From positions 23,746,001 to 23,810,000 of the forward strand of contig CM034546.1 of NCBI GenBank assembly GCA_020055645.1: a stretch of 64,000 nucleotides of DNA, in the 5' to 3' direction. Source of the stretch: Tomocerus qinae (taxonomy: Eukaryota; Arthropoda; Collembola; Entomobryomorpha; Tomoceridae). The stretch's first letter is position 1. Every line of letters starts with the position of its first letter. This document shows positions 26,727 through 58,895 of the stretch, in pieces. The notes beneath the pieces were generated by a model that saw only the letters and a program-made list of their open reading frames with translations, ran no database searches and had not been told where the DNA came from. Both the position numbers and the translations under genes were made by a program.

Positions 26727-27620
26727 CTACACATGTCTGTACTTTTGGTAATAATTTATTGAAAAACAAGAACAAAAGGCTTCATACCCAACACCAGATC
26801 TGCCCCCACATATTCCTCGTCTCCCATCCGTCATGCAGTCAAGGCTGCAACACTGAGAATTGACCGCACATGGCATTCCGGGGCCAACACACTGTCGAAA
26901 TATAATTAACCCAATTTTGACCTTTTTAAATCTGCTAATTTAATGGAATAGATAATAATTGGTAGATAATCTACTATTTAACGTTGTCTACCATACAAAA
27001 GAGTATATAATTAAATACGGGAAACATCACAATACATATACATCTTTAGGTTCTTGCACCTTGGATGGTAGTTAGCTATTGTCTAATGTCACATTGTTAC
27101 TAAAAATCCCATTTAAACTCAGAAAAATATGATTTTTTCTGTTTTTGTGGCCGACGGCAATTTTAATTAAGGTAACTCAAAACTTTTGACTTTATTTTAT
27201 TACTATACTACCGTTTTTGAAATTACTCTCTTAAAATTTCTGACTGAAATAATAGAGAATTTCTTAAATTCCTATCCCCGAAGAATTTTTCTGTTCATAT
27301 AACTATGGGCTGCTGGAAATAAAAAGTTCAAACCAAAATCGAATATTATTTTGAAATTATTATGGCAAACCTTCATCATCATCACTTACACGAGCACGTC
27401 GTTTGACACGAGGAAATCCGTCTGAACCGACAATTGTGTTTTCCAATCCTTCCTGGCTTTCTTCTTAAACGGAAAATGGTAATTTTCAATTATTTTTCTT
27501 GTGCATACAGCATTTGCACAGTTTTAAAATGTTCAATAAATTCGGAGTAGCCTCACCTGTAAGGACTAGAAGAATTGCCAGTACATATCCGAACGTTAAG
27601 ACTGCAAATATTCCACGCAT
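26727..27620 (-). CDS. Secreted cystine-knot (knottin-like) peptide precursor 1
   Basis: Three minus-strand exons, 27620-27557, 27463-27390 and 26891-26727, join in phases 1 and 0 to about 100 residues. Exon 1 encodes a hydrophobic signal peptide beginning MRGIF. Exon 2 encodes an acidic propeptide ending in RVKR plus RAR, a furin-type site. Exon 3 starts exactly at the first cysteine and has spacing C-x6-C-x5-CC-x3-C-x8-C, the inhibitor cystine knot pattern, followed by a longer tail with C-S-C. The tail has no equivalent in the other copies, so the true stop or a further intron is uncertain. Family members include venom toxins, antimicrobial and regulatory peptides; which applies here cannot be told. 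It is the first of a minus-strand cluster. Confidence 0.7.
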
Positions 27621-29267
27621 TTTTGACTCCTTCAAACTTTTAGTTCGCTAATATTCTTCAAATATGTCGATTACTTCTAATAAATAATGCCAATTTCTTA
27701 TTAATACTTTTATTTTTTATTTTTTATTATCTTCCAATTTTTTAATTTCTGGAATTTATTTAACCCCAAACAACTTAGATTCAAACACATTCTAAATACA
27801 ATACTAAGTTATTTACTTACGTGTTTGGTCAGTTAATCGGTTAACCACAGATTGTTTAAAATTTGCTTCTATTTCTCCAAAAATATGCTGGTTTCATTTA
27901 ATGCAACGCCAATTGTTCAATACTACTTTTATTTTCTGTTTTGATCTCCGAATTCTTAATTTCTGCGATTACCTTACTCACTTTAATTCAAAAACACTCC
28001 AAGTGCAAGACTAAATTATTTACTAGCTCGGTTGCTCACAATTAACTGTTTAAAATTATTTCGCCAAACTTTTGAAATTAGGGTGAACGTTGGACGTTGA
28101 TTCTCAACGTAGTAACTTTGGAGTGACACTGATACAATAATTTGCAACTCATCCATTTTAAGTCCTTCTTTTCGATTGTATAATGTTTTAATGACTACTT
28201 ATAATACTATTAATTGTGCTAATAGTAAGAAATACAGTAGGTAATAGTAAACATGACGCATAAATCTAGCTACACGTATTAAATATGATTATGAATTTGT
28301 GTTCTAACTGGATTTAAATTTGTACCTATAATTCTGATATATACACTAACCACATGGGGATAGGATTAGGATGGAGAAGGAGCTCATTGACATTGACCCT
28401 TCATGAGGTTACAGTGATAGTCAATTTACAATACCGAATATAAACTTAACAACCGCCCCGAAACATCATATTTTTAACATCTTTGATGTTTTTAGCACAG
28501 TGAATAGTATAATGAGTAATGAGATTAATATTTCAGGGTTTCTAGGGTTAGTTTCATTCGGTTGGCTTATAGTTGGCTAGCATCCAATATTTATACTATG
28601 ATAATTGCCATAATAAAGGTCACACCACTAGGTTTGGGTAGTAGTTATTTTCTCCCCTGCAGAACTAAAGGATTTTACCTCGGTTACCAGAATTTGCATA
28701 TAAAATATGATTTTCCAAATTTGGAAACTTCGGAAAAGCTTATAGAAATGTAATAATAGACTGATTATTTATCGGACCTTAAGTCTTTTTGATTTTCAAC
28801 ATATAAAATTAAAATACTCTTTAATTAAAAGTTATATACTCGTATTTGTTTAAAAGAATTAGGTCTACATCTTCGCTTGGATTAAATTACTACTATATAA
28901 GGCCAATTGCTACAGCCCATCGTTGAGTCCATTGCTTTATGAAATATGTTTACGTTTGTTTGACAGCCCCGTAAAATTAACCCATTTTGGTATATAGACA
29001 TGTGGTTAAATTTATTACCTTTTTCAGATTGTAGTTATAATATAATGTAGAGATATATATGGTTACAGTAACATTAATTTTAGCTGTGACTGACAATAAA
29101 TTAAATATAATCTTCACATATATTTTGTATGGTTAGTATTGTAATCCCCTTTAGTTCAGGTCATGCTTGAATTAATCTCATCCCCTAAAAACACAATGCA
29201 ATATTATTTTGTATGAACATTTAGTACGCATTACATTTTTTTAGAACACCGATGAGATGCATTATTA
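27621..29267. other. Spacer between knottin-like genes 1 and 2
   Basis: AT-rich, with two diverged tandem segments near 27660-27830 and 27880-28020 (each with gccaatt, ctttta and ttaatttctg). These probably belong to the upstream region of gene 1. No further signal or cysteine-rich exon was found on either strand. Confidence 0.35.
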
Positions 29268-30459
29268 TTACCAATTCCCTGCACAGATCATTGAGTGTGG
29301 ACCCGAAAAACAATACCCGGTGCAACATTGGCGATTTGAAGTACACGGCAAACCCCTCAATACACACTGTGGGACAAAAAATGATTTAATAGAGAAAATT
29401 ATGCAGTTTTAACTTTCAAAAAGATACTGATAATCTACTCTAGTTGGTAAGGCTGATTTTCTGTGAATTTAATAATTATTATATAAATCAATTTGCCAAC
29501 CTATCTATGTTTGGAAGGAGATTCTGGGAAATCTGCATAAATTACGTAACACAGACCCGCCCCACCTTATGTGTAACTCAACAAGGACAGACTGTTAACA
29601 CTTTTACACCCTCACTGAAAATTTACTGCGATGGGAACAAAAAAGGATTATTTTTGCTTTTTATATCTTATGTACGAATTCACCGGATACCAGGAGTGAC
29701 AGTTACAACGAATACCGATGATATTTTGTAATTCTTTTTATTACTGTGATGGGTGGCATGCTGAATTTCTCTTGAATGCTATATAGGTTCTCCTCTTAGC
29801 TGGGTTAACTAGTGTTCTAATAAAATTCAATTAACTATTTATTCCAATTCTTCTTCCCTCAAAAAAATCTAGTTAGTTAGACTAACCATTGCACAACATT
29901 TGCATCCGGAGTTATTTGTATCTTTTGTAGAGTAAATATGAATTGGTTTACAAAATCTCGCCATTGTTTGACTCGAGCTTTTCCCTATGACTTACTACAA
30001 TTATTGTTACTGACTTTCCACTGTCAATATAATTTTATTTTAGTTTTGACAAAATAAAATTTGCTTTTGTGGTATGGAATTTAGTACTCGTCCAATAATA
30101 ATTCTTTTTACAACTTTATAATGCGTCAAATGCATATATGACCCTTTTTACCTAGGTCCAAATGCCGCTTTTAAGAAAAAATTACCGCTTTTATAGTTCC
30201 AAAAAGGTCTATACCCATTCTCGTTCTCGTTTGACACGACCACTTCCGTATGACCTGAATACACCATTTCCCGATTCATCCAGATTTTCTTCTGAAAATA
30301 AAAGATAATTTCTAATAATTATAAGTATTTATAAGTACATTGTACTTGCATTGTTGAAAAAGGTTGAAATAAAATTTTTATTTTCCTACCGCAGTTTGCT
30401 TGAAAAAGAAGAATAGCCAGAACAAGGCCAAGAAGGAAGTTTACTAATATTCCACTCAT
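29268..30459 (-). CDS. Secreted cystine-knot (knottin-like) peptide precursor 2
   Basis: Minus-strand exons 30459-30390, 30291-30215 and 29366-29268 join in phases 1 and 0 to 81 residues. Exon 1 encodes a signal peptide beginning MSGIL and contains a cysteine near its end. Exon 2 is an acidic propeptide with RVKR followed by EREW; the donor ggtata is weak. Exon 3 begins at the first cysteine, shows C-x6-C-x5-CC-x3-C-x8-C and stops four residues after the last cysteine. The exon 1 length of 70 bp and the cysteine in it are shared with gene 4, placing these two in one sublineage. The long second intron (29367-30214) contains repeat fragments related to those at 52145-53130. Confidence 0.72.
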
Positions 30460-31844
30460 TTGTGTAAGAATTAAGGTTAAACAATCCTGAATTTGTTCTC
30501 TTACCTCTTGTTGTCATATAATACAGTTTGTAACGTTTTTATAAAGATTTCTGAAGGTTATTATTTCCGTTTTAATGATGTCTACTGCGATTTCTAGAAT
30601 CACTTTAGTTAGAATTAAAAAATTTATTTAATTGGAACATCAATCTCTTAAGCCACAACCATAACTATTACCACATTTTAATTCGAGTAATTCAATTGGT
30701 AATTTAGAAAGCTGGAGTTAATTGAGAATGCCATTTGGTTTCGATTTGAGTATTCCATTATGATTTTAGAGCTTCATTGTTATTATTATTTTTTATTTGT
30801 TTTCAATTTTTGATAATTACTACAACGTGTACATCTGTATAATTACATAATTATTATTATTGACTTGCTTTACTGAGTGCATCATGTGTTCGTATAACCT
30901 TCATAAGTTTCTTGTTTTACTTTCTGATATAATTACTACCATACTGCTTCTTACTTCAGATGAGTATGCATTGTTAATGTTACTACGCAAAGGTATAGTA
31001 TGGTGCCATCGGATCTATGAATTGAGATGTACAGGTGTAAAGACAAAGAAAGTAGATAAGAGAACAATAGGAACTTATAGATAGCCTTTGCTCGCTTATC
31101 TACTTTCTTTCACAAAAAGTCTCAAATTCATTCCAGTAAAATATGCAAAAATAATTATTTGTTATTATTATTATTATGAATAATGACTATTATAGATAAC
31201 TATTAAAAATTCTGTAAGACATGCGGCATGGTTTTAATCTTTAAGCAAGTAGAAATACATTTAATTTGATTTTAAGTGGTAATTTTTGTCGCAGAGTGAG
31301 CCGAATGGAAACAGGTTGTTTTGGAAGGTGTAAATCTTGTAAAGAGAAATTATAATACATTAGGGAGCTTATTATAAAGTATTCCAATGTTGGTCGTCAT
31401 TTTGCTGATAATGTCATAATACAATTGCTTCTTGTAAACCAGTAATAGGAGGACATCCGATAGGTTTTCCGAGGCTGACAGCTTACATCATCCCCAAAAC
31501 CTTAACGTGATATTACATTGCTTAGTAATAAATATAGGAACGTATGTACTTTTTGTTTACGTTTTCTAGACCATTATTGTTTCGGAAATTCCCATTTCCC
31601 AATCAACTTTACTGGACTTTGGGAAAAGGGGAATTACTGGAAATAGGACAAATGGAATATAGATATATAGCCATCACGCGAAGATTATTTCAGTCAGTTT
31701 TTCTGATGATCCCCATTTTTCTGCACGCAGTTGGCCATTTTTTATTAACACTTTTCCTTTTCCACTGGGGAATAAGAAACTTTCTTTCATTTCCCCCTCG
31801 AAACCATGTTCAGAACAGGGGAAAAGGATCCAATTATAAATACG
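30460..31844. other. Spacer between knottin-like genes 2 and 3
   Basis: No gene seen. The part 30713-30960 is duplicated near 49765-50010 (attgagaatgcca, tattccattatgatttt, actttactgagtgcatc). The part 31340-31830 is duplicated near 58270-58790 (taataggaggaca, acatcatccccaaaacc, cggaaattcccattt against cggatattcccattt). So the flanks were copied along with the peptide genes. The plus-strand frame at 31544-31954 overlaps this duplicated DNA and the antisense of gene 3, and is not considered real. Confidence 0.5.
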
Positions 31845-32485
31845 CTACCTTCCACAAACCCCTTCTCTTCCAGTCAATTCACAAACACCATTACAACATT
31901 CCGCGTCAGAAAAGCAAAGGTACCCGTTGGGATAACACTGTAAAGGTCAAATAAGTTAAATTGTGTTAACGATAAAGTTAGTAACATTTTAAATTTTTTT
32001 AAACGATTTTAATGCTTCCATATTACCTGGACTCTATTCATTTACATTTTTCACCTACTAATTTAATGGATTTAAAAAGATAATTTTTGAAGTTGCACAC
32101 TAAATTGTTAAAATAATAGTGAATTTCTTAAAAACTTACTCCAGAAGAATTTCACTATACGATACCACATGCAAATATGGACTGAATATAAAATGTTGGA
32201 ACCAAGATCGAATATTATATTGTAAGATTATAGGTAAACCCTTTATCACTTACACTAACACGTCGTTTCACTCGAACTGATCCGTCTGAACCGAAAATAG
32301 TGTTTTCCAATCCTCCCTGATTTTCTTCTTAAAAGAATAATGGCAATTTTAAATTATTTTTCAAATTTATCTGTACTTTCAGAGATTTAAAAAAGGTTCA
32401 ATAAATTCAGAGTTGGCTCACCTGATAGAACGAGAACAATGGCCAGGACAAACACAAACATTAAGGCTGCAAATATTCCACGCAT
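31845..32485 (-). CDS. Secreted cystine-knot (knottin-like) peptide precursor 3
   Basis: Minus-strand exons 32485-32422, 32327-32254 and 31937-31845 join in phases 1 and 0 to 76 residues. Exon sizes 64 and 74 bp equal those of gene 1, and the signal (MRGIF start) and propeptide are close to gene 1. The propeptide ends in RVKR followed by RVS. Exon 3 starts at the first cysteine and has C-x6-C-x5-CC-x3-C-x8-C with only two residues after the last cysteine. This is the cleanest copy: donors gtgagc and gtaagt, acceptor tttacag at exon 3. The mature peptide of about 30 residues would be secreted and disulfide-stabilised; the target is unknown. Confidence 0.75.
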
Positions 32486-33489
32486 TTTTGAAAAACTGCT
32501 TCGTCCAACTTTTATTTCGCTTCTATTTCTCCAAGTATGAGGGTTTCTTCTAAAAACAAATTGTTTAATAATAGTTTATTATGGGCTTATTTCTAGCATG
32601 AAATAACTACCAGACCGATTTGGATGCAAATTGGAACATAAATGATCATAGTAGTTCACAACATTAAAATACACATGTAAATGTAACTAACAATGTCCGT
32701 ACTGCAGAACTATTTTTTGGATTTCAGTGATTTCACTATATCAAATAATTTCTATCTAAAAACTATTTACCATAATTTATTTTATGTGGTAATTAAATTG
32801 TCGGCAGTTGAATATTCAATTTGTAATTTAAAAACATACAGCAAGCCGTAGCAGAAGCTCGCCTGAGTAAAGGGGACCGTGTGAACATTTTTGGTAAAGT
32901 AGTAGTGAAAAATATTTACTTTGATTACTAAAGGAATATTAATTCAAAACATATCAATACTGACTATTAAAATCAACAGAGAATCAAAAAAAATTATTGT
33001 TGACTACAAAAATCAACAGAAAGTCATAGCAGATCAATATTTACTATTAAAATCAACAGAAAATCCATATAGACTAATGTTGGATGTCAAAATCGACAAA
33101 AAATCAATATAGGTTATTATTGACTTGAATCATTCTGTTTTTATTCTTAAATATCATTATAATAGTTGTTTTTACGTCTGACGCGGTTTACCATTTTAGT
33201 TAGCGTATTAGAATTTTTTGACATACTTTACCTGTGCATCAAAATGTTATTGTATAATGCTGTCGTGTAAAATTTGATTCAGATCAACTTTCTCTTGCAA
33301 TCTGTTTGTGGACCAAAAGTATTGCATTGGTAAGTGGAACCCGTTTTTGTGTTCTAAAAATGCGTTGATTGAAATATCCACCCAGTATATTAAGTACAAG
33401 CAATAAAATTTTCAACCGTTATTACTACTTGGAACTGTGGCTCTCTTCCTTCTGTAAAATGCATATGTGAGAATTTTGAATCATTCTGT
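32486..33489. repeat. Repeat block: element fragment C and first copy of a ~350-bp unit
   Basis: From about 32835 the sequence matches the left end of the 'gctcgcctgag' element (cagcaagccgtagcag, ctcgcctgagtaaagg) plus about four degenerate 40-bp units to about 33125. From 33127 to 33489 follows the first copy of a ~350-bp unit (aatagttgttt, gtctgacgcggtttacc, gctgtcgtgtaaaatttg, ggaacccgtttttgtgttc). No gene was seen at 32486-32835. Confidence 0.6.
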
Positions 33490-35644: not shown

Positions 35645-36074
35645 TGTAGTAATTGTAGAGACTCTAATGTAGAGAGTCATAGAGTAAGTTATGCTGTAGC
35701 GGGTTATTGGGATATTTAAATTTGTGTCAGCCAATCAGCGAGAGTATAGAGAGGGACGCACATCGCACATTCTAATGTGGGGATAGTTAGAGTAGAGAGC
35801 AGAGCGGAAAGAGTGGCATTCTGTTTCTGGGCTTGAGTCGTGCGGGTTGGTTGATGGGCTAATAAAGTGGGATTGGATCTGGACTTCGGATTGGTTTCCT
35901 TTGTGGCATCCAGCATACGGGCATTCAAGCATACGGACATTCAAGCATACGGACATTCAAGCATACGGGCATTCAGGACGGGCAATTCAGGACAAATCGG
36001 GTATCCCTGGTTCGGTCGACTCTGACAACGTGCAGGCTTACCGTCTGAGGCGCATCCACCGTAGAACCAGCACA
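35645..36074 (+). repeat. 5' LTR of the Gypsy element
   Basis: 430 bp, TG...CA. Contains a 15-bp tandem motif (cattcaagcatacgg, three units near 35922-35970), one unit more than in the truncated LTR that follows. The word aataaag occurs at about 35860 and could serve polyadenylation. Confidence 0.9.
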
Positions 36075-36853
36075 GATATTTAAATGTGTGTCAGCCAATC
36101 AGCGAGAGTATAGAGAGGGACGACCCAGCCACGTTGGCTTGGTGGAGTACTCAGTCGTCTGACTAATCAATGTGTGCTTCCACTGCCAGTACGATTCTTT
36201 GGCTGGGTGAAATGGCCGAGGGCTGTTTAAAGGCGAGTGTTTGAGTTGTCAATGTGGAATTAAGACAAAGGTTAAGCACGAACCCGCAATTACAAGGGCC
36301 GTCCTATTGATACCTCGTATGTCCTGTGTACGTAGAGTAGCTTTGGATAACCTGTCTTTGTTGGGCTAGTAGACTTCCGATAACAGTCCCACGACAGTGA
36401 CTCGTAAATGACAGCCTTAGGCTTCTCGGGTATTAATTAACAACAATACCAGTGTTGAGGGAGTTGGCAATAGGCCCGTATTGAGGCCTGCGCCCAGTAC
36501 TATCACTTTGTAGTGAGGCAGTACACCCCATATAACATACATAGAGAGGGACGCACATCGCACATTCTAATGTGGGGATAGTTAGAGTAGAGAGCAGAGC
36601 GGAAAGAGTGGCATTCTGTTTCTGGGCTTGAGTCGTGCGGGTTGGTTGATGGGCTAATAAAGTGGGATTGGATCTGGACTTCGGATTGGTTTCCTTTGTG
36701 GCATCCAGCATACGGGCATTCAAGCATACGGACATTCAAGCATACGGGCATTCAGGACGGGCAATTCAGGACAAATCGGGTATCCCTGGTTCGGTCGACT
36801 CTGACAACGTGCAGGCTTACCGTCTGAGGCGCATCCACCGTAGAACCAGCACA
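36075..36853 (+). repeat. Second, 5'-truncated LTR carrying a SINE-like insert
   Basis: Starts directly after the CA of the first LTR, at the LTR-internal word gatatttaaatg, so about the first 64 bases are missing. It runs to the same ccagcaca end at 36853. A 418-bp insert plus a 13-bp duplication lies inside. It has two 15-bp units instead of three. The head-to-tail LTR arrangement is unusual for an intact element. Confidence 0.85.
36123..36540 (+). mobile_element. SINE-like retroposon in the truncated LTR
   Basis: Flanked by a perfect 13-bp duplication, atagagagggacg, at 36110-36122 and 36541-36553. This length variety is typical of target-primed retroposition. Near the left end tggcttggtgg resembles a polymerase III A box, and gtacgattct about 50 bases further weakly resembles a B box, suggesting tRNA derivation. 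The right end is A/T-rich (tataacatac) rather than a long poly(A). No protein is encoded. Confidence 0.6.
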
Positions 36854-37654
36854 GAAGATTCGGGGTAAACTCTTGTCGGAGGAAGGACAGGATTCAGGGA
36901 CTTTTTTTTGAAGAAGGACAACGAATTCACGTAAGTCAGTTATCATATTTTATAAAATGGGGCGAAATTTTTTTTTGGGATTATTTGCGAAGCGTATATA
37001 AAATGTCTGTAGAAAGGGAAAGTGATGACTGAATACTGACTTTTTGGGGAACTGAGTAGTGACACAGTGTCGCAATAAATTTTTTTCGGTCAATATAATG
37101 TTTGGGGAATGTTTAAAAATATATCTATATTTATTTTGGGCCTGAAATCTGCGAAAAAACGGGTTTTTTTTGGGTCGCTATTGCGTAGGTACTGTTCGGA
37201 GGACATTTTGGGGGCGTTAGGGAATTATTTCGACAAAATACCTTTACATTTCTTATTTGTAATACTATTTCTGAATTACTGGGCAATTAAAAGTCAGTTT
37301 TAAAATGATTTTTTCAAATTTTTGGTATATATGGGTACGTATACAGTTCCAGGGTTTCCTGGGCTGACATTTTTTTTATGGGTTGGATAATTGGGGTAAA
37401 ATTCATTAAATAAATTGAGAAAAATTACTTTAAGCCAGGATTTCATAGGAACGTCTATTACCGAAAATCTGAAATTAAAATTAGGGTGAATTTTGTGGAA
37501 ATTATTTTTTCTAATTAGTCGGTCAGCATTTTTCCATCGTATGAACCCTGGTATTTGACTTCATAGTGAGACTACTATAAAATTATGTCATTTATTTTCG
37601 GATAAAGCCTAGAATGTTTAAAATTGAATTTTAAGATTTACTTTAAACTTGAAA

Positions 37655-37918
37655 ATGTCGTTATTATTAATACCAGTCACGATTCAGCAGTTATTTCAAG
37701 CGCCTATGGTGACTTACGCATTAATTCAAGTTTATGCTGAACAATTGCCAATGACTGAATGGGATAATAATATGTGCATAGTTATTGCGTCTTTCTATAA
37801 TAATCGTAATTTCATTGAGCATCCTTCATTAATGGCAGTCTTTATGCAAGTCGCAATGCAACGTAACTACAGATTTTTCTTAGTGAACATGCAACATGTC
37901 AATGCAGATTTGATTTAA
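37655..37918 (+). CDS. Small leader ORF of the Gypsy element
   Basis: 87 codons from an ATG preceded by aaa, ending TAA at 37918; two codons upstream is another in-frame ATG at 37649. The product has no recognisable domain: it is hydrophobic at the start (SLLLIPVTIQQLF) and otherwise mixed. It lies in the long leader between the LTRs and gag. It might be an upstream frame affecting gag translation, or chance. Confidence 0.3.
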   Translation: MSLLLIPVTIQQLFQAPMVTYALIQVYAEQLPMTEWDNNMCIVIASFYNNRNFIEHPSLMAVFMQVAMQRNYRFFLVNMQHVNADLI

Positions 37919-38357
37919 TTATTCTTATATGGTAATACAATTTGTAGTAAATTTTTCTTTATTTGGGTGGTAGCTGCGGAGCGATACTAAAATCTCTCAT
38001 TGCTAAGCGATAATTTATGCAATTTATGTTGATAAGTGGCGACAGTCTAGCACGTCCGACTCCAACATTATCTTTCGTATAACTTTGTTGGAAGTCAGAT
38101 AACAAGGAGGATGAATACTTAATTAAGTTAAAGGACGCTATTGGAGGTGAATGTCTGGCCACATGTTAATTCTTTTCGACTTTATCAGTCAATTGAGTTG
38201 AATGTTTAAATTTTTGGTGGTCATTTACGCATTAGGGATAGGAAGTATTTAGAATATTATAATTTAAGGGGGAGTTTTCTAGAAGTTAAGCAAATAAATT
38301 TCTGTTGGATGTTAATTCAATCTTGTTTCTTTGAGTTAATCTTTGTTCTGAGACAAG

Positions 38358-46341: not shown

Positions 46342-47085
46342 ATGGCTGAGAGGAGAAATGAGCCTAATGAGTGGGGCGTGACTGAGGACGAGTGGAATGT
46401 GGCTCCACCAAGAGACGTTCCTGTAGAGGAGGTTGCGAACTCGTTGCAACGACTCAACTACGATGAGGAAAATGGTGAAGGTGCATGGGAGGACAATCAA
46501 GTAGTCGATAGAGCTGTTGAAGGAGTACCAGCGGCAGGAGTCCCTAATGGGGAGGTTGTTGTGAATTTTCGGGCTGTTGGAGTTAATATTCCAAACGTCG
46601 GCACTGCAAGTGTGCAGGAGAACTCGGTGACTTATCGCCAGAACAATTCCTTTACCACATGGCGTAATGGTGGTGATGAAGGTCGAGTCTTGAGAGACAG
46701 AGAGCGTGCTAGAGACAATCGTGGTGGTCGATCAGATCGCGTTGGGGGCGATAGTCGACGAGGCTCCCGGGGCCCTAATCAAAGGTCCGAGCCACAAGGA
46801 GGTGGGCGATACGGGGCGAGGCGTGAAATTCGCAAAGAAACTGGAGGAATTTCGCGAAATAAGGCTGGGCGGATGGCTTGGCTTCATAGCAATCAGCGGG
46901 GACAAAAAATGTGCTACGTATGTAACTCTACATCTCATGAGATGTTTCAATGTGAAAAGTACCATTTATTGCTGATTGAACGGGCTAAACAGGCTGAGGC
47001 ACGTTGTGTGTCTTGTGGCAAGGTTTTGGGTCGGCCAGGTCAACTTTGTCGTGATTGTGTGGGTAGATACGCCAAAATCTTTTGA
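46342..47085 (+). CDS. Third ORF of the Gypsy element: RG-rich zinc-knuckle protein
   Basis: 247 codons from the ATG at 46342 to TGA, starting 25 bases after pol. The N-terminal half is acidic. Residues of about 110-170 are Arg/Gly-rich with repeated RGG/RGS-like motifs. The C-terminal part holds a CX2CX4HX4C zinc knuckle (CYVCNSTSHEMFQC) followed by two CX2C pairs (CVSCGK, CRDC), probably another zinc site. There is no signal peptide or membrane segment, so it is not an envelope protein, although it sits where env would be. Nucleic-acid binding is likely; it could be a second nucleocapsid-like protein or a captured host RNA-binding fragment. Confidence 0.75.
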   Translation: MAERRNEPNEWGVTEDEWNVAPPRDVPVEEVANSLQRLNYDEENGEGAWEDNQVVDRAVEGVPAAGVPNGEVVVNFRAVGVNIPNVGTASVQENSVTYRQNNSFTTWRNGGDEGRVLRDRERARDNRGGRSDRVGGDSRRGSRGPNQRSEPQGGGRYGARREIRKETGGISRNKAGRMAWLHSNQRGQKMCYVCNSTSHEMFQCEKYHLLLIERAKQAEARCVSCGKVLGRPGQLCRDCVGRYAKIF

Positions 47086-47629
47086 CATTCTTGTGCAACG
47101 GAAAGTGAAGTGGCTATTTTGTGTAAAAATTAATTGATTTTTGTTATCTCTATCATTTAGTTATTTTTGGTTGATGCTATAATAGTTTTGGAACTTTTGT
47201 TATACCAATATTTCTTGTATAATTAATTTTGGAACTTTTGTAATACCATTGGTTTTTGTATAATTAATTTGGGAACATTATATTTTATGTGTTATTTTGT
47301 CGTAGACTCTACTTTGCTGTTAGGTAACAATATATTTTTGATGTTGTTTCTTGTATAATTGATTTGGGACTATATGATTTATATATTATACTGTATTCGC
47401 CTTTACTTTGCTGTTAGGTAATAATTTCTTGATGTTGTAATACATACATATTTTTGTTGAGGATATTTAATATTAGTGTTATGATGTATTATTGCATGGA
47501 ATTATGTTGTTATAGCTAAGATTTGGATACTGTGTACTAGAATTAATTTTGATTCATTCGGGGAATCACCTTCTTTTTCTTGGTAGGGGGGAAAAGCTGG
47601 GGACAGCTTTAAAATAAAAATGGGGCATA
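47086..47629 (+). other. 3' untranslated part of the Gypsy element
   Basis: T-rich, with repeated gtataattaatttggaac-like words near 47215-47275. A purine run, ggtaggggggaaaagctggg, lies at about 47583-47602 and atggggcata touches the LTR; either could act as polypurine tract. Confidence 0.5.
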
Positions 47630-48059
47630 TGTAGTAATTGTAGAGACTCTAATGTAGAGAGTCATAGAGTAAGTTATGCTGTAGCGGGTTATTGGGATAT
47701 TTAAATGTGTGTCAGCCAATCAGCGAGAGTATAGAGAGGGACGCACATCGCACATTCTAATGTGGGGATAGTTAGAGTAGAGAGCAGAGCGGAAAGAGTG
47801 GCATTCTGTTTCTGGGCTTGAGTCGTGCGGGTTGGTTGATGGGCTAATAAAGTGGGATTGGATCTGGACTTCGGATTGGTTTCCTTTGTGGCATCCAGCA
47901 TACGGGCATTCAAGCATACGGACATTCAAGCATACGGACATTCAAGCATACGGGCATTCAGGACGGGCAATTCAGGACAAATCGGGTATCCCTGGTTCGG
48001 TCGACTCTGACAACGTGCAGGCTTACCGTCTGAGGCGCATCCACCGTAGAACCAGCACA
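47630..48059 (+). repeat. 3' LTR of the Gypsy element
   Basis: 430 bp, TG...CA, identical by eye to the 5' LTR except t against g in aaatttgtg/aaatgtgtg. Three 15-bp units, as in the 5' LTR. Followed by gtat, the target duplication. Confidence 0.9.
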
Positions 48060-48063
48060 GTAT

Positions 48064-49765
48064 TCGAATGTAAAGAAAGACAAAATTGATAAATATTGAG
48101 TATCAAAATGAAAAGAAAATCAAAACAGATCAATATTGACGATCAAAATGACAAGAAGATCAATATTAACTATCAAAATGAAAAGAAGATCAATATTGAC
48201 TATCAAAATGAAAAGAAAACAATTTCAAAATTAATTAATATTGACTATCAAAATGAAAATAAAAGAAAATCAAAATTGATTATATTGAGTATTAAAATCA
48301 AAATTGATTAATATTGAGTATTAAAATCAAAATTGATTAATATTTAGTATTAAAATCAAAATTGATTAATATTGAGTATTAAAATCAAAATTGATTAATA
48401 TTGAGTATTAAAATCAAAATTGATTAATATTGAGTATTAAAATCAAAATTGATTAATATATTGAGTGCTAAAATTAAAATAAAATCAAAATTGATTAACA
48501 TTGAGTACAAAACCAAGTCAAAATCGGTTAATATTGACTATCAAAATGAAAAGAAATTTGACAATTAATTTCTCATTTCTCCCCGAATAGTGATTTTTTG
48601 GTTTTATTTGCTTGTTTATAAAATCTCAAATTTAGTAGAAGCGGAGTGAAATGTTTTATACTATCTCGGTAACAACTTATAGGAAACACCATTGAACTTT
48701 TTAACATCCATTTAATGCCAAATTTTCATTTTGACTATCAAAATGGAGATAAAGTGTGCGTGCGGTATCTCAGCAACCAATGGACCGATTTACCCCAAAA
48801 TCAGTAGGAATCGTCAGTGGTTCACAAGTATTGTTTTCACTTTGTTTGGCTAATATCCGTCAAAAAATATGGTCAAAAACATTCCACATTGCCTTTACTG
48901 ACGTACGGAAGCAATATAAAATTTGGCGGAAACATACCAACATGATTTATTACAAACACCAAAAACAGATATAAATCTCATAAATTAATCATTGGGTAAA
49001 TGATAAAACTGGTGTTAAATCACCAGTATGCGGTAATCAATATTTACCCCGAATTGGGAAAAAACTGAATTAAAATAACACTTTGGCACATTAATTCCTA
49101 TAATTATGGTTAATTTTTAGAAATCTATTCAAAAAGCTGAGTCCAAGCATATGATCAAAAACATTCCACACTGCCTTTACTGACGTTCTGAAGCTATATA
49201 AAATTTGGCGGAAACATACCAACATGATTCATTACAAACACCAAAAATTTAGAAACCTTCAAATGTTTCTATCACCATTTTTGATTTCCACTAACAGGAT
49301 CATTTTTAAGTGGAAACGTTTATTGCGACCATAAAAATATGTATTAGAAGCAAGCAGAATAAAGTGGACAATTTGAACGTAAAGATACTGCATGTTATTT
49401 AAGAGCAGAAATTCATGTTCCACAAGCATACAAATTTATTTTGGTCTGTGTTTAACAACCATTACCAATATTTCAACACGTTTTCAATAAAAGCGGCACT
49501 ATTCCAATCAACAGTAAAACCAAAGATTATATGTAAATAACAAATTTTTCTGCTGTTATTTGCGAACTGTTGGACATATTTTTTCAACAATCCAAAGAGA
49601 TCGTTACACGCACATAGACGACGTTTTTTGCCAAGTTTGGTCAAATTTTGTCAATTCCTTCGGGAGTTATCGTGAGGACGGACTTAGGGTAGTGTCATAG
49701 TGTCTTCGCGCGGACGGACAGACTGTGTGATTCTATATAGCTCGTCAGGCGAGATAAAAACTGGA
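48064..49765 (+). mobile_element. Minisatellite-bearing element copy D, disrupted
   Basis: An array of degenerate units (gattaatattgagtatta plus aaatcaaaatt) spans about 48090-48545. The conserved core follows (tagaagcggagtgaaatgtt, aatcgtcagtgg, tttggctaatatccgtc), then the right end (cggacggacagactgtg, agctcgtcaggcgag). Core and right end are separated by about 760 bp of extra sequence (48862-49622) carrying a direct repeat. The left part lies next to the Gypsy insertion, which landed in this array. Confidence 0.6.
48870..49247 (+). repeat. ~96-bp direct repeat, 48870-48965 and 49152-49247
   Basis: Both copies read ggtcaaaaacattccacattg or a one-base variant, then cctttactgacgt, then atataaaatttggcggaaac, then taccaacatgattcattac with small differences. 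They bracket about 190 bp inside element copy D and may be the ends of another inserted element. Confidence 0.75.
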
Positions 49766-51123
49766 ATGAATTGAGAATGCCAAGCGGCTTTGTCAATTGG
49801 TACCGTTTTAAGTATTCCATTATGATTTTGGAGTTTTATCGTTTTCTAATGTTGGTTTTGTTTTCAATTTTTGTTATTTACTATGACGCACACATAAGTG
49901 CAATAAAATAATAATTACTTACTTTACTGAGTGCATCTTGCATCACTAATTAATGTTTTCATATGGCCCTCGTAAACTTGTAATTATTTTGCTTCTGATG
50001 TAATAATCCCCAAGCACGTATCCAGGAATTTGACCAAGAGTGGATCTACCAAAAAATATTGGCAAAATTGGATGATTTTTGAGCTTTGCTATTTATTGTT
50101 TCAAATCTTTCCTGGGCCAGTTTTTCTGCCATTTTATTTTTCCAGTAACTTCAAAATAGTTTCAACATTTTCATTTCGAAGACAACAATTCTTATTTGAC
50201 CATAAAAAACCCGATCTGGATGTCATACTCTGACTTATATGGTGCATCGCATGAAAAATGGAATCCTCTTTAATATATTGTCTTTTTCCACCGTCGTATT
50301 CTGTTGTAACTTCATGTAATCGTTGTACATAATCCATAGATGGAATTCTACATCGCTGCTTAAACTTCTCTTTAAAGCTAACTTCCGTAAGGGTTGATTT
50401 AAGTCAATTTGAAGTCAAGATGGGGACGGTATTCATAAAAAATTCGGAATAAAATATAATTTCACGGAAAGTTTCATCTAAGGAGATTACTTTATGCAAG
50501 ACTGTATTTAGTGGGGGCATTGGGGGGAAATGCCATCCCTTCGAATTCCAGGATATAAAATTTTTTTCTCGAATTACCAAAAAATTTCGCGCTTCAATTT
50601 TATGTGATTTTAAGCCAATTTTGTTTACTTTCGACAAAAAGAGCCTAAATTTTTTGCGCCTAGCGCTATTATACATAATACGTATGGCTTATGAATGACG
50701 TCCTTGCCCCTCAAAAATTGACTTCCAAATACGGTCGTGAATTTATGCGATAAAGGCTTAGTATGATCCGAATCCCGATTCCGATTAGCGATCAAGAGTT
50801 TTTGAATAATGTGTCCACAATACGAATGACATTTTAATTTTTCCATATAGCCGAACATTAAATAAGCAATTTGGTGATTTTAGCAATTAAAGTTACACAA
50901 AGGTTTAGGTTTTTAAATTAAGTTTAACTATTTTAAAGTTACAATTACACAATCAGAAGTTTAATATGGTCTTCAGTATTCTTTTGTATCGTTGACCGAG
51001 TATGATTTGATCACCAGAGGATTCCATCATCCAAGTAACCCTCTAAACATATTCAAAAATTGTTCATTAATTACAGACCTTTTGTGTCTTTTAATTGCTA
51101 AAAGAAAGAAACCATATAAACAG
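49766..51123. other. Intergenic region before knottin-like gene 4
   Basis: 49766-50010 is a diverged duplicate of 30713-30960. The remainder is AT-rich with only short unsupported frames. Confidence 0.4.
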
Positions 51124-51737
51124 TTATCGATACCCAATCTTCTCGCATCTCCCTATTCTTCCGGTCGACCTACATAACCGGGAGCAACATTGTGAATCAA
51201 TAGCACACGCTCCTCCTTTTCCAATACACTGCAACCCAAAAAATAATTCATAAAATAAAAATAGGCATTATTTTAAGTGAATTGTATTGACCGAACACTG
51301 ATCTTCTCGTTGGTTTGAAGTGTTGCCTTTATTGCTATTATAGATTATTATTTTTTCTAGTTTATGGTGATATTAAATGGCCTCCAGCGTTTTGCCACGA
51401 CAATAGCATTTGGTAACAAAAATTTTCAGATAGACAATACGTACAAAATTAACTGGGCTTTGATATTTATTTTAAAAACATTAAAAGAGTGAGCACAATG
51501 GCTCTTACATTTCGTTTGACACGAGATTTTCCATGTGAATCGATATTTTCCAGTTCTTCCCAGTTTTCCTCTATTAAAATTAAATATTAATTATTTTTAA
51601 TGCGTCAACATGCATTAGAATGTGACAGTTCGAAAGAAATATAAATAATTTGTTTTAATTGTCTTACCACACTTTGCTTGAGAGAGAATAGTGGCCAGAA
51701 AAAACCCAAAAAGAAAGATTGCTAATATCCCACGCAT
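51124..51737 (-). CDS. Secreted cystine-knot (knottin-like) peptide precursor 4
   Basis: Minus-strand exons 51737-51668, 51570-51509 and 51228-51124 join in phases 1 and 0 to 78 residues. Exon 1 (70 bp, signal starting MRGIL, cysteine near its end) resembles gene 2. The propeptide is shorter (62 bp) and ends in RVKR plus Asn. Exon 3 starts at the first cysteine with C-x6-C-x5-CC-x3-C-x8-C and a six-residue tail. Donors gtaaga (both) and acceptors aatag and tgcag are good. It is separated from genes 1-3 by the Gypsy element and repeats, but shares duplicated flanks with gene 2. Confidence 0.73.
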
Positions 51738-54331
51738 TTTTAATAAAACTGGCTTTCAAATTATATTTGCTCCTTGTTCTTAAACCTTCTTAGTTTTGAT
51801 GTATCCCAATATTATTTTCTACGTTTTTATAGATATCTGAAGGTTATTACTTTCTACTTTAAGTACAACTAGAATAAATTCAGCTTAGTCTCAAAATACC
51901 TCACAGATTTCGAGGGCATCCAGAACTTTAATGTCGCGAGGTCAATTTGTTTTAGCACTTTCTAATCATAGAGCATTAAAGATTACAAATAGTGCAATTT
52001 TTATTTCAATACAGAATAACCTTGAAATGAGTTGAAATAAATTTTAAGCAATCAATTTCTATTTCTAAGTAGTCTATTATGATTTGTATTTATTACTTTG
52101 CATTGTGTTTTAGATTTTTCCATTTTCACTTCTTAATTCTAATATATAACCACAGACTGAGATAACGCAATAAATTTACCTACCTATCTATCTATATATC
52201 TATCTATGTCTGGTAGGAGTGCTTAGGGAACCTGCACATATTACGTAACGCAAAACCCACTCCCCCGTGTCTAACGCCAGTGCTGACTGTAACTCTTTTG
52301 ATTGCCTTCTCCTCCCATCAATTGCACACATAATATATGCATGTTCCTTAAGCAAAATGCGCAAGCCCAATTCCTCTAAACCACCGAAATAAGTCGTTGC
52401 ATTTTATTATTACATCAAAACAATAATAGAAATTTACATAATAAGGCTGAATGGTGAGTGGTGATTGAATGGAAATGATTAGCGAAAGGGGACATTGAAA
52501 TTTGGTAATGATCGTAATGTGCGTATTAACTAGCATTTTAAAACTTCTAATCCCAATATAGGCTTCCCACAATTGGTGACCGATCAAATTAACATGAATG
52601 ACTCCAATACCTGTGTGTGTTATCCTGGAATTGTGGGAAACGTCTATTGGTTCTGCTATATGAACAAACTTATTTAACATTTTTAGTAAAGTTGGAATTA
52701 ATTTTTTACTACCCTCTTGATTCCTTTGTGCCAGTTGCCACGCCTTTTTGTATAATTAAATATCTGTACTGGGAGCCATTATTTATTCTTTAAAAATATT
52801 TATTGGTAAGCAGTACTTATGGGATTCTTATTTTTCTGATTTTAAAAGGGAGCTTTTTGATGATTTTGTGGATTTTTTTCAAAAATGCATCTTTCAACTG
52901 TTTCCTTTATTTGATGCTAAGATCTACAGTTATTATTTTGGTTTAGGAAATTCGTTTTTATCAGGAAGTTAGGGTTGAAGCAAAATATACTTTGTAATTA
53001 CAATGTTAACACAATTAACTATACGGGATCTGTTCGAAATTGTTTTATAAATTACTATGTTCCGTAGCCTGCCGAATTTCTCTTGAGTGCAAGGCTTGCG
53101 CCTTAGCTGGGTTCACTAGTTTATATATAAAGACATTTGTTTTGTTTTTTATTTTTCTGACCCAATTCAGACATTTTAACATACAATTTATACGATGCGA
53201 TGTATCATGCGATCACGGTGTACAATATTATATTTAGTACAGGTAAATAAGTAAGAAATTATTTAAGGGACCATTATTTTTAAGACTTAATTGTTTTTTC
53301 AATTGTTAGTTACCTAATTTTTTATGGGCTGGAATAATCACATGCATTTGATGCATTTCTATTAACAATGGTAGGTATATATCCATTTATGATGTCATTC
53401 TTGAAAAATATGATGTAGTCGAGTATATAAATCCTAGGGAGGCATGTCTCCAACGATTTGGCGTAGGGTTAATACATCAAAATCAAAATATAAGATTGGT
53501 AAAAACATAAAAAAATTGCAGGTTTTTAGTTTTTGACCGAAACAAATGTCCCATGGAGGGCACGCGTTGCTCCTAGAAATAAAATCTAAGATTTGTGTAA
53601 AGGGTTTTGTAGAGAACATTACAATCACAAATTGCGGAAGTTGGCACGACTTTCCAACTAATGATTATTACTCATAAATGATGCTGGCTCTTGTTTCTAA
53701 ATTTCGATAAACAAAAATTTTCCATCAAATCAAACAGGTACAGGTCCATATTAAACTAGAAAGGCGAAAATGCATATATGGCACCCAGCTACGACGCTAG
53801 AATTTTGTTTATGTAATTCCAGTACATATTTATGATATCCCTATATCTGTACCTACAAAATGGTCTGCAGCTGTTCTTTATACTTACATTTTTGTATAGC
53901 GAAATGTTGTAATGGGACGGAAGGTTACATGACATTTTGCAATTAAATCTTCCAGGAAATACATTTATTCGTTTAAAGTCAATACTTTTAACTTTTGGGT
54001 AATAACTATCTTATTTTACAGTTGCATCATTTTTACTCATCGCTATAAATGCAATGTATAAACAAATTTTGGTATACAACACCAAATAGTACTTTCCATA
54101 CCTTAAAATACGGAAAAACGTTTATGCATAAAATGACTTATGTATATAGGTGCTACTAATGTGTCATATATATTTAGAGTGCTAGAGACCCTCCAAAAAC
54201 AAAACAAAGAAATCCTCCAGAAACATTTATTTCTAACTATCTGGCCAAATAAAACGTTGAAATATATGCTGTGACAATTTGTCCCGCAGAACTTCTTTGG
54301 TTTCATCAAACACTATTTTGGAAACCTTATC
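51738..54331. other. Intergenic region with repeat copies
   Basis: 51820-51870 resembles 30545-30590 (tctgaaggttatta), the matching upstream flank of knottin-like gene 2. The repeat at 52145-52690 is listed separately. At 53066-53115 the words tgaatttctcttgagtgc (against tgaatttctcttgaatgc at about 29765) and cttagctgggt recur. No gene was recognised; the 110-codon minus frame at 52348-52680 is within repeat. Confidence 0.4.
52145..52690 (+). repeat. Interspersed repeat 'ataaccacagactgagata', copy 1
   Basis: Shares with 63438-63770 the order ataaccacagactgagata, tatctatctatgtctggtag, agggaacct, acgtaa, agtgctgac and gcaaaatgcgca. A partial, more diverged piece lies at about 29500-29625. No coding or terminal structure was clear. 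Confidence 0.65.
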
Positions 54332-57300
54332 ATGGGGTTTCTAATCCATCTAGCCACTGTGACCTATTTTCTAAAAATTACATTTGTATTTGCAATTCTG
54401 GTCATATTTTACACATTTTTTTATTTTCATTTATATTTTACCAACTCCAACAAAGATATGCATAATCATGTTGTTACCCAAAGCCTGCCTTCTATTACCC
54501 CTAAAAATTCTTCAAAAATTCATATTACTCGTTCTAATATTCCTTCAATTAATACTACTACTCCTTCCTCCACTAATTTGACTACTACTCCTTCCTCCAC
54601 TAATTTGACTACTACTCCTTCCTCCACTAATTTGAATACTACTCCTTCCTCCACTAATTTGACTACTACTCCTTCCTCCACTAATTTGACTACTACTCCT
54701 TCCTCCACTAATTTGACTACTACTCCTTCCTCCACTAATTTGACTACTACTCCTTCCTCCACTAATTCGACTACTAGAATTCTTTCCATCACTAATTTTA
54801 CTATTTCTACTCATTCAAATAATTCTTCTACAACTTCAAATACTGCTTCCACTCATTCACTAATTACTGGCTCTACTACTTCCATTTCATATTATTATAT
54901 TACATCTGAAGGTAAGTTAAACTATTAATTTTGAAGTAATAACGTATTTACGCAATTCTTAAAATTATTTGAATTGATCATTGTAGAAAGAGAGAATATC
55001 ACTACACAAGAACGAATAATACGTTTTAATTACGACCTCAGAAACATGGGACTCGCTAAATCCAATGCAGAGCTGGAGTTTTTGCTAAACATAAGAAAAT
55101 TAATTATATTCTCAGTGCACGAGTTAAACAAACCTTTGAGACATACAAATTGTGTGAGATGGTGGGCAAATCCTTTAGAGCTAATATACCATGAAGTTGT
55201 ATTACAGACAAAGACCCATTTAATTCATGAGATACAATTTAAAGTCCACCCAGGGAGTTTCCGACTTAAAACGACAATTATTCAAATACTTCCACCGGTA
55301 AAAATTACTGAAAATGAGCTAGAGATTTTAATTCCATTGGAAATCTTGGATGAAATACCAATTTCTAAGCTGTGTGGTGAAACCGTAGAATTGACCATCG
55401 CTATTCGTAAAACTTGTCTCTGTCGCTATACAAAAGAAACTGGAAACTTTCAAAAACAAAGTGATGAACTTCGAAAGAAATGGGACTTGCTCGACAAAGA
55501 ATGTATTTCTTGGCCCCCATCAGCATCATTTTCAATTCCTGACTACATAAATTTCACTGATTATCAATCATTTATTATTTCTCCTGGTAAAAATAAAGGT
55601 CATTACTGTGAACGAAGAGCAGAGTATTGTGGACCTGAAGTGAAATTGCTAGTTATGATTAGTTCAGCCCCTCGTAACACAAGACAGAGAAAAATAATTC
55701 GAGAAACGTTTGGAAATCCATCATATCTAAAAGGAAAAAATGCCAAGGTGGTATTTGTTATGGGGAAACCGCTCAATGAAACTTTAAATGTGCGTAATTT
55801 AATTATAATAAAATGAATATTAGGTAATTATTGGTCAAATATTCATGAAACTTGCATATAATTATCTCTGTAAATATATCCTTAAATCAATACTGTTGAT
55901 CAAAGGCATTTCAAATGTGTTGCATACTAATTCCAGTCAAATATGGTATTTTCAATTTCCAATATTTCACATGAACTTCAAAGTCTAGCATTCAATATAA
56001 TATTGTACCTATGTTGATATACAAATTGAAATACGAAATTTTGTATAAGAAACATAAAATATTATACATAGCCATTTATGCGTTTAACTAGTCTTTGCAA
56101 TTGCAGATATTTTTTTGTTAATGTACTATTTATAAATAATTGTAATGGCTAATTTATAAAATTATTATGGTATTACTAAATAGTATGAATATTATATTTA
56201 CAGAAGGACGTCATTAATGAAGCTGAAAAGGAAAATGACATCCTCCAAGTAGATTTCGTGGACTCTTATCATAACTTGACATTGAGTCATCTTTCAATGC
56301 TTAAATGGGTCCATCTGACATGTGGACAAGGGAAGTACATTCTCAAAGTGGATGACGACTTTCTATTAAACATCGAGCTTGCTTTAAAAATAGCAGAAAA
56401 CAACTCAGACATTGAAATGATGTAAGATAAAATAAATATTTTATATATAAAATTTTGCTCTACATCAATCTTCGAACATAATAATCAAAAACTAAACTAA
56501 TTACTTAACTCAATCATAGCTTATTTATATATTTTATATTTATACCGGATTTTGAGTGATATTTCAGATTCATCAATGTTTTGTCATTAAAATATTCCAT
56601 TTTTTGAATTCCCATTTTTTCCCTTCCTTCCAAATATCGTCCTTTAAGGAACCAAATAGCCTATCTCCACTTTTCGTTTTGTGTACGAAATAGCCTAAAT
56701 CCATTTTTCGTTTTGTGGACGAAATAGCCTATCTCCATTTTTCGTTTTGTGGACGAAATAGCCTATCTCCATAGCCTAGACACTCTCTACATAGCACCTA
56801 TACATGGCGCAGCATTTAGGCTCCTTGGCGTTTAGGCTATTTCGTCCACAAAACGAAAAATGGAGATAGGCTATTTCGTCCACAAAACGAAAAATGGAGA
56901 TAGGCTATTTCGTCCACAAAACGAAAAGTGGAGATAGGCTATTTGGTTCCTTAAGGGACGATATATTATATTCATTACAAAAGTACAGAACACACATTTA
57001 TTTTCTTATGGAGGACTCTGAAGATTTCAATGCTTTAAACTGTAAATTAGTTTGTTAAACCATTGGTATAATTTATGTTTGCAGAGGGTGCCATTTCTGT
57101 GGAAACAAGCCAATAAGGAATGTAAATTACATGAATAAATACTACACTCCTCGATATATGCATATCTCAGAATCCTATCCTGGCTTTTTAAGCGGAGTGG
57201 CATACATGTTGAAATCTGATTTTATTCCATTGCTGCTTCACATGGCCATAACTACACCACTGATTCACATGGACGATGTCTACGTCACTGGATTTCTACC

Positions 57301-57613
57301 TAGGCAACTTAAAATTTATCCTCGGAGATCACCTTTGTTTACTTATGGCAGAATTGAACCTGATGCATGTAAATCTAAAAGGATGGTCAGTTAAATATAA
57401 AAACATACTAACTGAAAAATATTAAATATTATGTTACATTGTAATTTTGATTACGATTTACAGGCAGTATCTTACGTCTTGAACCCAGACGATATGATCG
57501 TACAGTGGAAAGAATTTGTTAAACCAGCCCCTTCAAATTGTTCATTGAATGATTTACCACTGAAAGTACTATCTCTTAATACAGGCGATAAAACAGCTTG
57601 TTTTTTCGAATGA
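54332..57613 (+). CDS. Beta-1,3-galactosyltransferase-like (GT31) type II membrane protein A
   Basis: Five exons, 54332-54911, 54987-55789, 56204-56421, 57085-57385 and 57464-57613, join in phases 1, 0, 2 and 0 to 683 residues. Residues 12-36 form a membrane anchor and the protein is probably Golgi-resident. A Thr/Ser/Pro-rich stalk with eight TTTPSSTNL repeats follows. Exon 2 gives a ~200-residue region I do not recognise, then the start of the GT31 fold (RQRKIIRETFG, VVFVMGKP). Exon 3 has VDFVDSYHNLTLSHL and the metal-binding KVDDDF. Exon 4 has GVAYML and HMDDVYVTG. Together these are the GT31 landmarks: the enzyme would add a sugar in beta-1,3 linkage from a UDP-sugar. Donor substrate and acceptor cannot be told. 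The exon 2 donor (gtgcgt) is the least certain border. Confidence 0.82.
54554..54769 (+). repeat. 27-bp coding minisatellite in the GT31 A stalk
   Basis: Eight units of actactactccttcctcc plus actaatttg, in frame, encode TTTPSSTNL (one unit NTTPSSTNL, the last ending TNS). Near-identity of the units implies recent expansion, so length may vary between individuals. Confidence 0.9.
56634..56964. mobile_element. Foldback element with internal tandem repeats, in GT31 A intron 3
   Basis: The ends atatcgtcc and ggacgatat are inverted. The arms, each with about three units of roughly 34 bp (cgttttgtggacgaaatagc plus ctatctccattttt), are nearly perfect complements around a ~75-bp centre. No coding capacity. 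It sits on a possible atat target. Confidence 0.75.
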
Positions 57614-58787
57614 TATGATTGGATTTTATTATTCGAGTTTTGTTTATTTACCACGAAATGGTAAGCATTAATGAAATCCAACTTTTTATACGCTAAATAT
57701 CATTACATTATGTCTAGTAATCAGGGCATTGCATACAAATACAGGATTAGTGGTCGCCTTTGATATTAACACAAGAATTCGAATTACACAACAGATCTTT
57801 ACACAGAGAGAGCATTAGTTGTAATACGTTGTAAATTTCGGTGGCGTATATCATGAGGACAAGTTACGAATAAACATTTTCGTAGAACAAAAAATATGAA
57901 TTATGTTTTCATCGCCCACTCAGCATTAACTGATCTCAGCATGCCAAATATCATCCAGTGACAATTGATATTCTTTGGAGTAGAATTTTGAATACCTTTA
58001 AAACATTAGAATTTGCTCTACCCGAAAGTAGGCGGGGTTTTAAGAATATGTTAAGATTTTGGTTTCTATACCGAAGTAATTTACTATGAAAGTCACCCGC
58101 TCACCTTAACTATGTGTATGTTATGCATTTCTAATGGCAACATGCCTCATCAGGAAAAATGCTATTTGTGGTTCAAATTCTGAATAATTTATTCGTGCTT
58201 ATCTGAACAAAACCGTAAAGACATGTTTTGTATTGTAATTGCATTTTTAAAGAAAAGTAATTCATAATAATAATTGGGGAGCTTAAGGTATTTAAATGTT
58301 GCTCACTATAATGCTGGTAATATCATAATATTGTAGCTTCATAGTTTCTTCTTGTAAACTAATAATAGGAGGACAAGCGATACATTTTCCATAGCTGGCA
58401 TCTTACATCATCCCCAAAACCTAAACATATGTACAAAATTGTAAAGTAATTACATGAGTGTCTGTAGTCTGTACTTTGGATTTAATTTTTCTGAACCATG
58501 GTTTCGGATATTCCCATTTTCCACTCTAATTTATTGTACTTTGAGAAAAATGGGAATTACCGGAAAGTAGGAAAATGGAAAATAGATGTGACCACCATAC
58601 AGAATTAAGGTTTATTTCCTTGTCGACGGGGCTTGGGGTTATAACATTATAAGCGAAAACCAGTCAGATTTTCCATTACCCGTTTTCCCACCCACTTGAC
58701 CATTTTGTTTTCCACTTTTTCCATTGAGAAATCAGAAACTTTCTTTCATTTCCCATTCGAAACCATGATCTCAATAGGGGAAAATAA
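57614..58787. other. Intergenic region; 3' flank duplicated from knottin-like gene 3
   Basis: 58270-58787 is a diverged copy of 31340-31830. The rest is AT-rich with no gene. Confidence 0.45.
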
Positions 58788-58895
58788 TCAGTTATAAGTA
58801 GGGTACCTCCCACATATCCCCTCTCTTCCAGATAATTCACAAATACCGTCGCAACAATCACTATCTGAAAAGCAATGTTCCCCCTTGCCATAACA
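58788..58895 (-). pseudogene. Orphan mature exon of a cystine-knot peptide (copy 5)
   Basis: Reading the minus strand from the tccag acceptor at 58896-58897, the exon begins at the first cysteine. It shows the family spacing C-x6-C-x5-CC-x3-C-x8-C with a seven-residue tail before TGA. It is closest to gene 3, and its downstream flank is also a copy of gene 3's. No signal or propeptide exon was found upstream within about 2 kb (to 61 kb). The copy is therefore probably a 5'-truncated pseudogene, unless a distant or diverged first exon exists. All six framework cysteines are intact. Confidence 0.65.

Follow-up and report, generated by a model that had tools for sequence, protein, structure and literature searches.

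A same-strand cluster of putative inhibitor cystine knot peptide genes in the springtail Tomocerus qinae, including an apparent mosaic gene

We analysed a 64,000-nucleotide stretch of the genome of the springtail Tomocerus qinae (GenBank assembly GCA_020055645.1, contig CM034546.1, positions 23,746,001 to 23,810,000 of the forward strand), hereafter called the window, in which positions are counted from the first letter and the G+C content is ∼31–40%. Between positions 26,727 and 58,895, the window contains four complete genes (genes A to D) and one orphan mature exon (exon E), all on the minus strand, which very likely form one cluster of animal genes encoding secreted inhibitor cystine knot (ICK, or knottin) peptides. 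The original prediction, made from the letters of this DNA, had already proposed secreted cystine-knot peptide genes, and this is still the best reading of the exons, the signal-like leader, the RVKR site, the cysteine framework and the predicted fold. Our analysis adds two points, namely that gene C has the appearance of a mosaic and that the region holding exon E and the mature half of gene C are two copies of the same DNA.

Each of the four genes consists of three coding exons with GT/AG borders, so the four complete genes and the single orphan exon of the original prediction are borne out by exon models. Exons 1, 2 and 3 are located at 27557–27620 (donor in phase 1), 27390–27463 (donor in phase 0) and 26727–26891 (stop included) in gene A; at 30390–30459, 30215–30291 and 29268–29366 (stop included) in gene B; at 32422–32485, 32254–32327 and 31845–31937 in gene C; and at 51668–51737, 51509–51570 and 51124–51228 (stop included) in gene D. 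All 12 exons are 62–165 nt in length, within the predicted limit of 170 bp, and all four genes share the predicted identity of intron phases (phase 1 after exon 1 and phase 0 after exon 2). The first introns are 93–98 nt long and the second introns 280–848 nt. Exon 1, which ends in phase 1, has 21–23 complete codons and encodes a signal-like leader that is hydrophobic at its core; a hydrophobic N-terminal leader was recognized by inspection in all four genes. Exon 2 encodes a propeptide with an acidic stretch and RVKR. The prediction of a propeptide exon ending in RVKR therefore holds for the presence of the motif in all four genes and fails for its position, because 1–4 more codons (N, RVS, RAR or EREW) follow before the exon ends in phase 0. 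Exon 3, the first codon of which specifies the first knot cysteine, encodes the putative mature knottin; in gene A, this exon continues for 26 codons beyond the sixth cysteine, including two additional cysteines. When profiles of the three exon types were run against the window, five mature exons, four signal exons and four propeptide exons were detected, and the next best matches (E-values 0.34, 0.79 and 0.11, respectively) were noise; as the profiles were built from the same exons that they recover, this result speaks only against overlooked copies.

The five mature exons share the framework C-x6-C-x5-CC-x3-C-x8-C with identical spacing (x6/x5/x0/x3/x8) in every copy, as originally predicted, and thus the C-C-CC-C-C order of ICK peptides. 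A nucleotide-level pattern covering cysteines 1 to 5 (C-x6-C-x5-CC-x3-C) matched the window five times, always on the minus strand, whereas 100 dinucleotide shuffles gave a mean of 0.00 matches and none reached five. A relaxed six-cysteine search in all six frames of the window revealed no framework besides the five exons. Apart from the six cysteines, a single glycine is the only residue invariant across the five copies. Exon 3 of gene C terminates in Cys-Gly-Arg-stop, a possible signal for C-terminal amidation.

Exon E (58788–58895) has an open frame to its stop codon, an AG acceptor and all six cysteines. Neither blastn nor the profiles detected leader exons for it in the window, which ends ∼5.1 kb upstream of E. 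A model in which E continues the minus-strand frames that immediately precede it (∼59.1–59.7 kb) was considered and rejected, because the second of these frames, judged by eye, ends in phase 1 whereas the acceptor of E is in phase 0, and no leader-like exon was found.

An AlphaFold2 model of the mature exon of gene D is knottin-like, on short and weak matches, with a fold compatible with C1-C4, C2-C5 and C3-C6 pairing. Spider knottins provided both structural and profile matches to the family: the best match of the mature-exon profile among solved structures was U3-scytotoxin-Sth1a (PDB 5fzv; E-value 3.7e-5; 0.5 Å over 25 residues according to VIA), a match that covers 20–25 residues and is borne mostly by the cysteine spacing. 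The Pfam model PF02950 (Conotoxins) recognized the precursor of gene D above its cut-off (27.3 versus 25.1 bits), and the precursors of genes A, B and C scored 13.1, 16.4 and 18.6 bits, all below it. For Toxin_29 (PF08116, the PhTx neurotoxin family), the best score among the four mature exons scanned (those of genes B, C and D and exon E) was 23.5 versus the required 25 bits, in gene C; among the precursors, those of genes B and C fell below the cut-off and that of gene A was not among the matches listed. A search with the four-gene precursor alignment in a collection of 5.8 billion proteins, from which the retroelement search recovered eukaryote proteins (ncbi, uniref, nr), yielded 194 candidates and none at an E-value of 1 or less, although distant knottins may escape this search, which needs shared 5-residue words. 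A search of viral contigs with the mature profile gave 32 stretches with the pattern and no relative. Rfam gave no match at the gathering score, and no tRNA was found.

Comparison of the genes with one another revealed a break within gene C. Its leader half (32111–32556, minus strand), which begins 71 nt before the ATG and ends 143 nt inside intron 2, is 74.8% identical over 456 columns to positions 27247–27683 of gene A, whereas its mature half (31349–32002) is 68.9% identical over 723 columns to positions 58264–58959 around exon E, a copy that comprises the end of intron 2, exon 3 and downstream DNA. The two halves are separated by a switch interval of 108 bases in intron 2 (32003–32110). 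These borders were obtained by gapped blastn (C 32556–32111 to A 27683–27247, E-value 4e-80; C 32002–31349 to E 58959–58264, E-value 1e-73), and a self-comparison of the whole window, in which blocks are not limited by query ends, gave identical block ends. Because parts of this AT-rich DNA that lack significant similarity still align at 56–71% gapped identity, similarity between corresponding gene parts was measured as z-scores against shuffles. Genes A and C are alike in each part from exon 1 through intron 1 and exon 2 up to 200 nt into intron 2 (z 12–16; 76–82% identity). The similarity is then lost: z is −0.9 for the final 90 nt of intron 2, 1.9 for the core of exon 3 and 1.7 for the 200 nt that follow the gene. 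In these three parts, gene C instead resembles the E region (z 8–12; 75–81%). A scan of gene C in 80-nt blocks, with rough z-scores from 12 shuffles per block, gave the same picture: gene A matched from 32585 to 32106 (z 9–32, followed by two blocks of 4.6 and 3.8), where E remained at background (z at most 1.6) and genes B and D matched more weakly over the exons, and E matched from 32025 to 31746 (z 13 or more), where gene A was at background; in further blocks below, E retained z-scores of 3 or more. In addition, the leader halves of the four genes prefer the grouping (A,C),(B,D), and the other two topologies are rejected (approximately unbiased test, p-AU 0.005–0.006). We consider it highly probable, from the DNA alignments, that gene C is a mosaic of an A-like leader half and an E-like mature half, with the switch inside intron 2.

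A conserved leader joined to a hypervariable mature exon is usually explained, as for conotoxins and mussel CRP-I peptides, by rapid substitution under diversifying selection. The present family has this general appearance, since so few residues are invariant in the five mature copies and the leaders are more alike. Yet the similarity between genes A and C is also gone in the non-coding end of intron 2 and downstream of the gene, and synonymous divergence (pS) rises together with non-synonymous divergence (pN): in exon 3, pS is 0.86 and pN is 0.46, compared with pS values of 0.41 and 0.25 in the leader exons. Selection on the peptide would not produce such a rise, and fast peptide evolution alone is therefore insufficient and, as a sole cause, improbable. 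The combination of alike leaders with unlike mature peptides in genes A and C thus appears to reflect recombination rather than fast evolution of the mature peptide alone. A stronger competitor, which we regard as possible but not as the favoured account, is gene conversion instead of exon exchange. According to this explanation, A and C are old paralogues that differ in their mature halves, a tract of ∼450 nt homogenized the leader halves alone, and E arose independently as a partial duplicate of the mature half of C. The strong A/C block is indeed short and has a definite end on either side (C 32556 to 32111), as expected of a conversion tract, with only weak similarity upstream (z 4.7 over 300 nt, 71 nt of the leader block included), and the saturation of synonymous sites in exon 3 but not in the leader exons indicates that the two halves differ in age. 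However, the C/E block would then need its own event ending in the same ∼100 nt of intron 2, whereas one crossover with E-like DNA covers both. A single genome does not allow crossover to be distinguished from gene conversion, nor the recombinant to be identified as gene A or gene C.

The possibility that these sequences are non-functional relics of a decaying family is very slight. Within the window, one copy of the five lacks a leader and a young retrotransposon lies between genes C and D, but all four full copies retain their frames, GT/AG borders, intron phases, RVKR and six cysteines, despite exon 3 pS values of 0.51–0.86 in the six pairs among A–D. The intactness of exon E by itself proves little, since 30 and 9% of simulated copies retain the frame and six cysteines after 5 and 10 random changes, respectively. 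E and the mature exon of gene C differ at 21 sites, a load that only 0.6% of simulated copies survive, and their pN of 0.20 is well below their pS of 0.47. This suggests constraint on exon E, although the share of the 21 differences that arose in E itself is not separable. A function in innate immunity is also conceivable, though less likely than not; the genes would then encode knottins with antimicrobial or antifungal activity, resembling the Alo peptides of springtails and beetles. As far as the cited account describes them, the latter are secreted single-domain knottins with the framework C-x6-C-x7-9-CC-x3-C-x10-C (PMC10051947), and thus share with the present family the form, the x6 first loop and the x3 spacing from the CC pair to the fifth cysteine. 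The predicted isoelectric points of the A, B and D peptides are neutral to basic (8.7, 7.9 and 9.2), which also fits such a function. On the other hand, all five mature exons have x5 and x8 where Alo peptides have x7-9 and x10, no Alo peptide was recovered among the 194 candidates of the precursor search at an E-value of 1 or less, and the C and E peptides are acidic (4.9 and 4.6). Given the span from 4.6 to 9.2, one common cationic antimicrobial role is unlikely.

As a whole, the locus is probably best explained by a knottin family that was diversified by duplication and by recombination in intron 2. The precursors would enter the secretory pathway, where, according to established secretory biology, signal peptidase would remove the product of exon 1; a furin-type convertase would be expected to cut after RVKR; and a knotted mature peptide of ∼33–57 residues, with three predicted disulfides, would be released to act outside the cell, possibly bearing a C-terminal amide in the case of gene C. 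Recombination inside intron 2 would have joined the leader half of one gene to the mature half of another and thereby generated gene C. The role may be that of a diversified secreted effector, either toxin-like or antimicrobial, that is directed against other organisms, and not that of a conserved hormone; we hold this proposal with only middling confidence. Several results weigh against these interpretations. Scores from Foldseek and VIA were low, which is common for a chain of 34 residues, and they indicate a fold class at most. Single mature exons compared with PDB by sequence gave nothing significant (best E-values 0.27 for D and 0.14 for C), the profile alone being successful. The tree of the 84-nt exon 3 core rejects no topology, and therefore the mosaic rests on block similarity and not on tree conflict. 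Finally, the acidity of the C and E peptides disfavours a simple cationic antimicrobial role.

The genes work like those of four known peptide families, as far as the cited accounts describe these, yet each family departs from them in the length of a loop or the phase of an intron. In the mygalomorph spider Hadronyche cerberea, the ICK toxin genes have signal, propeptide and mature exons, intron phases 1 and 2, and long introns (PMC13172734). The present genes share with them the three-exon ICK plan, the phase-1 first intron and an expanded family with transposable elements nearby, but have a second intron of phase 0 in all four genes instead of phase 2, and short introns (93–848 nt). Conotoxin genes mostly have three exons, corresponding roughly to signal, pro and mature regions, with introns mostly of phases 1 and 2 (PMC3862624); the second intron is of phase 1 in the I2 and T superfamilies, and 72 single-exon loci, some of which may be assembly artefacts according to the authors, were reported in a cone-snail genome (PMC3862624, PMC8152183). 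The three-part exon plan connects our genes with conotoxins, and PF02950 accepts one of the four precursors (gene D) and not the other three; their phase-0 second intron differs from both phase 2 and the phase 1 of I2 and T. The mussel CRP-I family, with the framework C(X3-6)C(X1-7)CC(X3-4)C(X3-5)C (PMC10138031), likewise distributes signal, dibasic propeptide and knottin over three coding exons and combines a conserved leader with a variable mature part, but its final loop is 3–5 residues long, versus 8 in all five mature exons here. The fourth family, the Alo peptides, differs in the loops given above; the main text of the cited account mentions neither exons nor introns, so that the comparison concerns the peptides. 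Two other candidates were set aside, namely the ICK scaffolds of remipede xibalbins (x6, x6, x4; PMC5577568), in which the spacing differs, and conotoxins with a two-finger fold (PMC12236594), which have other gene structures.

Recombination between leader and mature regions is known in principle from proposals made for conotoxins, in which a mature exon is joined to another leader (PMC3862624), and for scorpion venom genes, in which it occurs at the phase-1 intron of the signal peptide (PMC5308243); for mussel CRP-I, the authors did not regard exon shuffling as a plausible explanation of how many arrays there are (PMC10138031). We also considered a two-module system, in which two kinds of cassette would recombine at intron 2. 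One kind would carry the leader, with promoter-proximal DNA, signal, propeptide and the 5′ portion of intron 2, and the other the mature exon, with the 3′ portion of intron 2, the knottin exon and the 3′ untranslated region; leaderless exons such as E would serve as donor stock from which new secreted knottins are made. This generalization is rather unlikely, but if it is true, the pattern of conserved leaders and hypervariable mature regions in such peptide families is partly a product of recombination. The cluster appears to form a family of its own among peptide genes of a known kind, and it contains what is probably a clean instance of exon exchange. Genes for small secreted knottins, with every exon shorter than 170 nt, are easily missed, and yet four related genes, which have a combination of intron phases of their own, could be recovered here from raw sequence. 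The trio of A, C and E provides a compact and readable case of a mature exon joined to the leader of another gene inside intron 2, and cautions that contrasts between leader and mature regions can be misread as positive selection.

Several repeated sequences lie around the genes. An upstream block of gene B (30533–30575, minus strand) containing TATAAAAACGT is common to gene D (51821–51862; 84% over 44 columns); it sits at approximately −74 to −125 from the ATG and may be a core promoter. The upstream region of gene A is duplicated (27905–28024 versus 27686–27817, 70% identity). Downstream of gene D, a segment (49757–49940) aligns at 71% identity with positions 30708–30886, which lie upstream of gene B, and is possibly a remnant of another duplicated unit. 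Furthermore, a dispersed repeat is found upstream of gene D (52143–52383), near the window end (63436–63670) and in intron 2 of gene B (29501–29581), and repeats of this type could promote unequal exchange.

The retrotransposon between genes C and D (35645–48071) is of the Ty3 type, with RVT_1 and RNase H matches above and protease-like matches below the cut-off. Its long terminal repeats (35645–36087 and 47630–48071) are 99.1% identical, and the element was therefore recently inserted. Among the 120 relatives of its reverse transcriptase that were listed, many of the named ones are from the pseudoscorpion Cordylochernes scorpioides. A long palindrome (42990–43640, ∼86% self-complementary) is present at the break between its two long pol frames. 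On the plus strand, four copies of a multi-exon hydrophobic membrane-protein family were recognized by eye (998–2580, 6314–8882, 11164–12700 and 17195–18731), the first two of which are 78% alike in DNA; the family recalls chemoreceptors, yet when six of these exons were scanned with Pfam, none gave a chemoreceptor match. Also on the plus strand, there are two galactosyltransferase-like genes (54275–57394 and 61194–63453), in both of which the last exon, but not the earlier exons, passes the cut-off of Galactosyl_T; a protein search with one galactosyltransferase-gene exon gave none of 494 candidates at an E-value of 0.001 or less. The region of the first of these genes contains a second long palindrome (56634–56964) with 34-nt repeats in both arms, and the gene carries a 27-nt tandem repeat of 8.3 copies that codes for a Thr/Ser-rich stalk.

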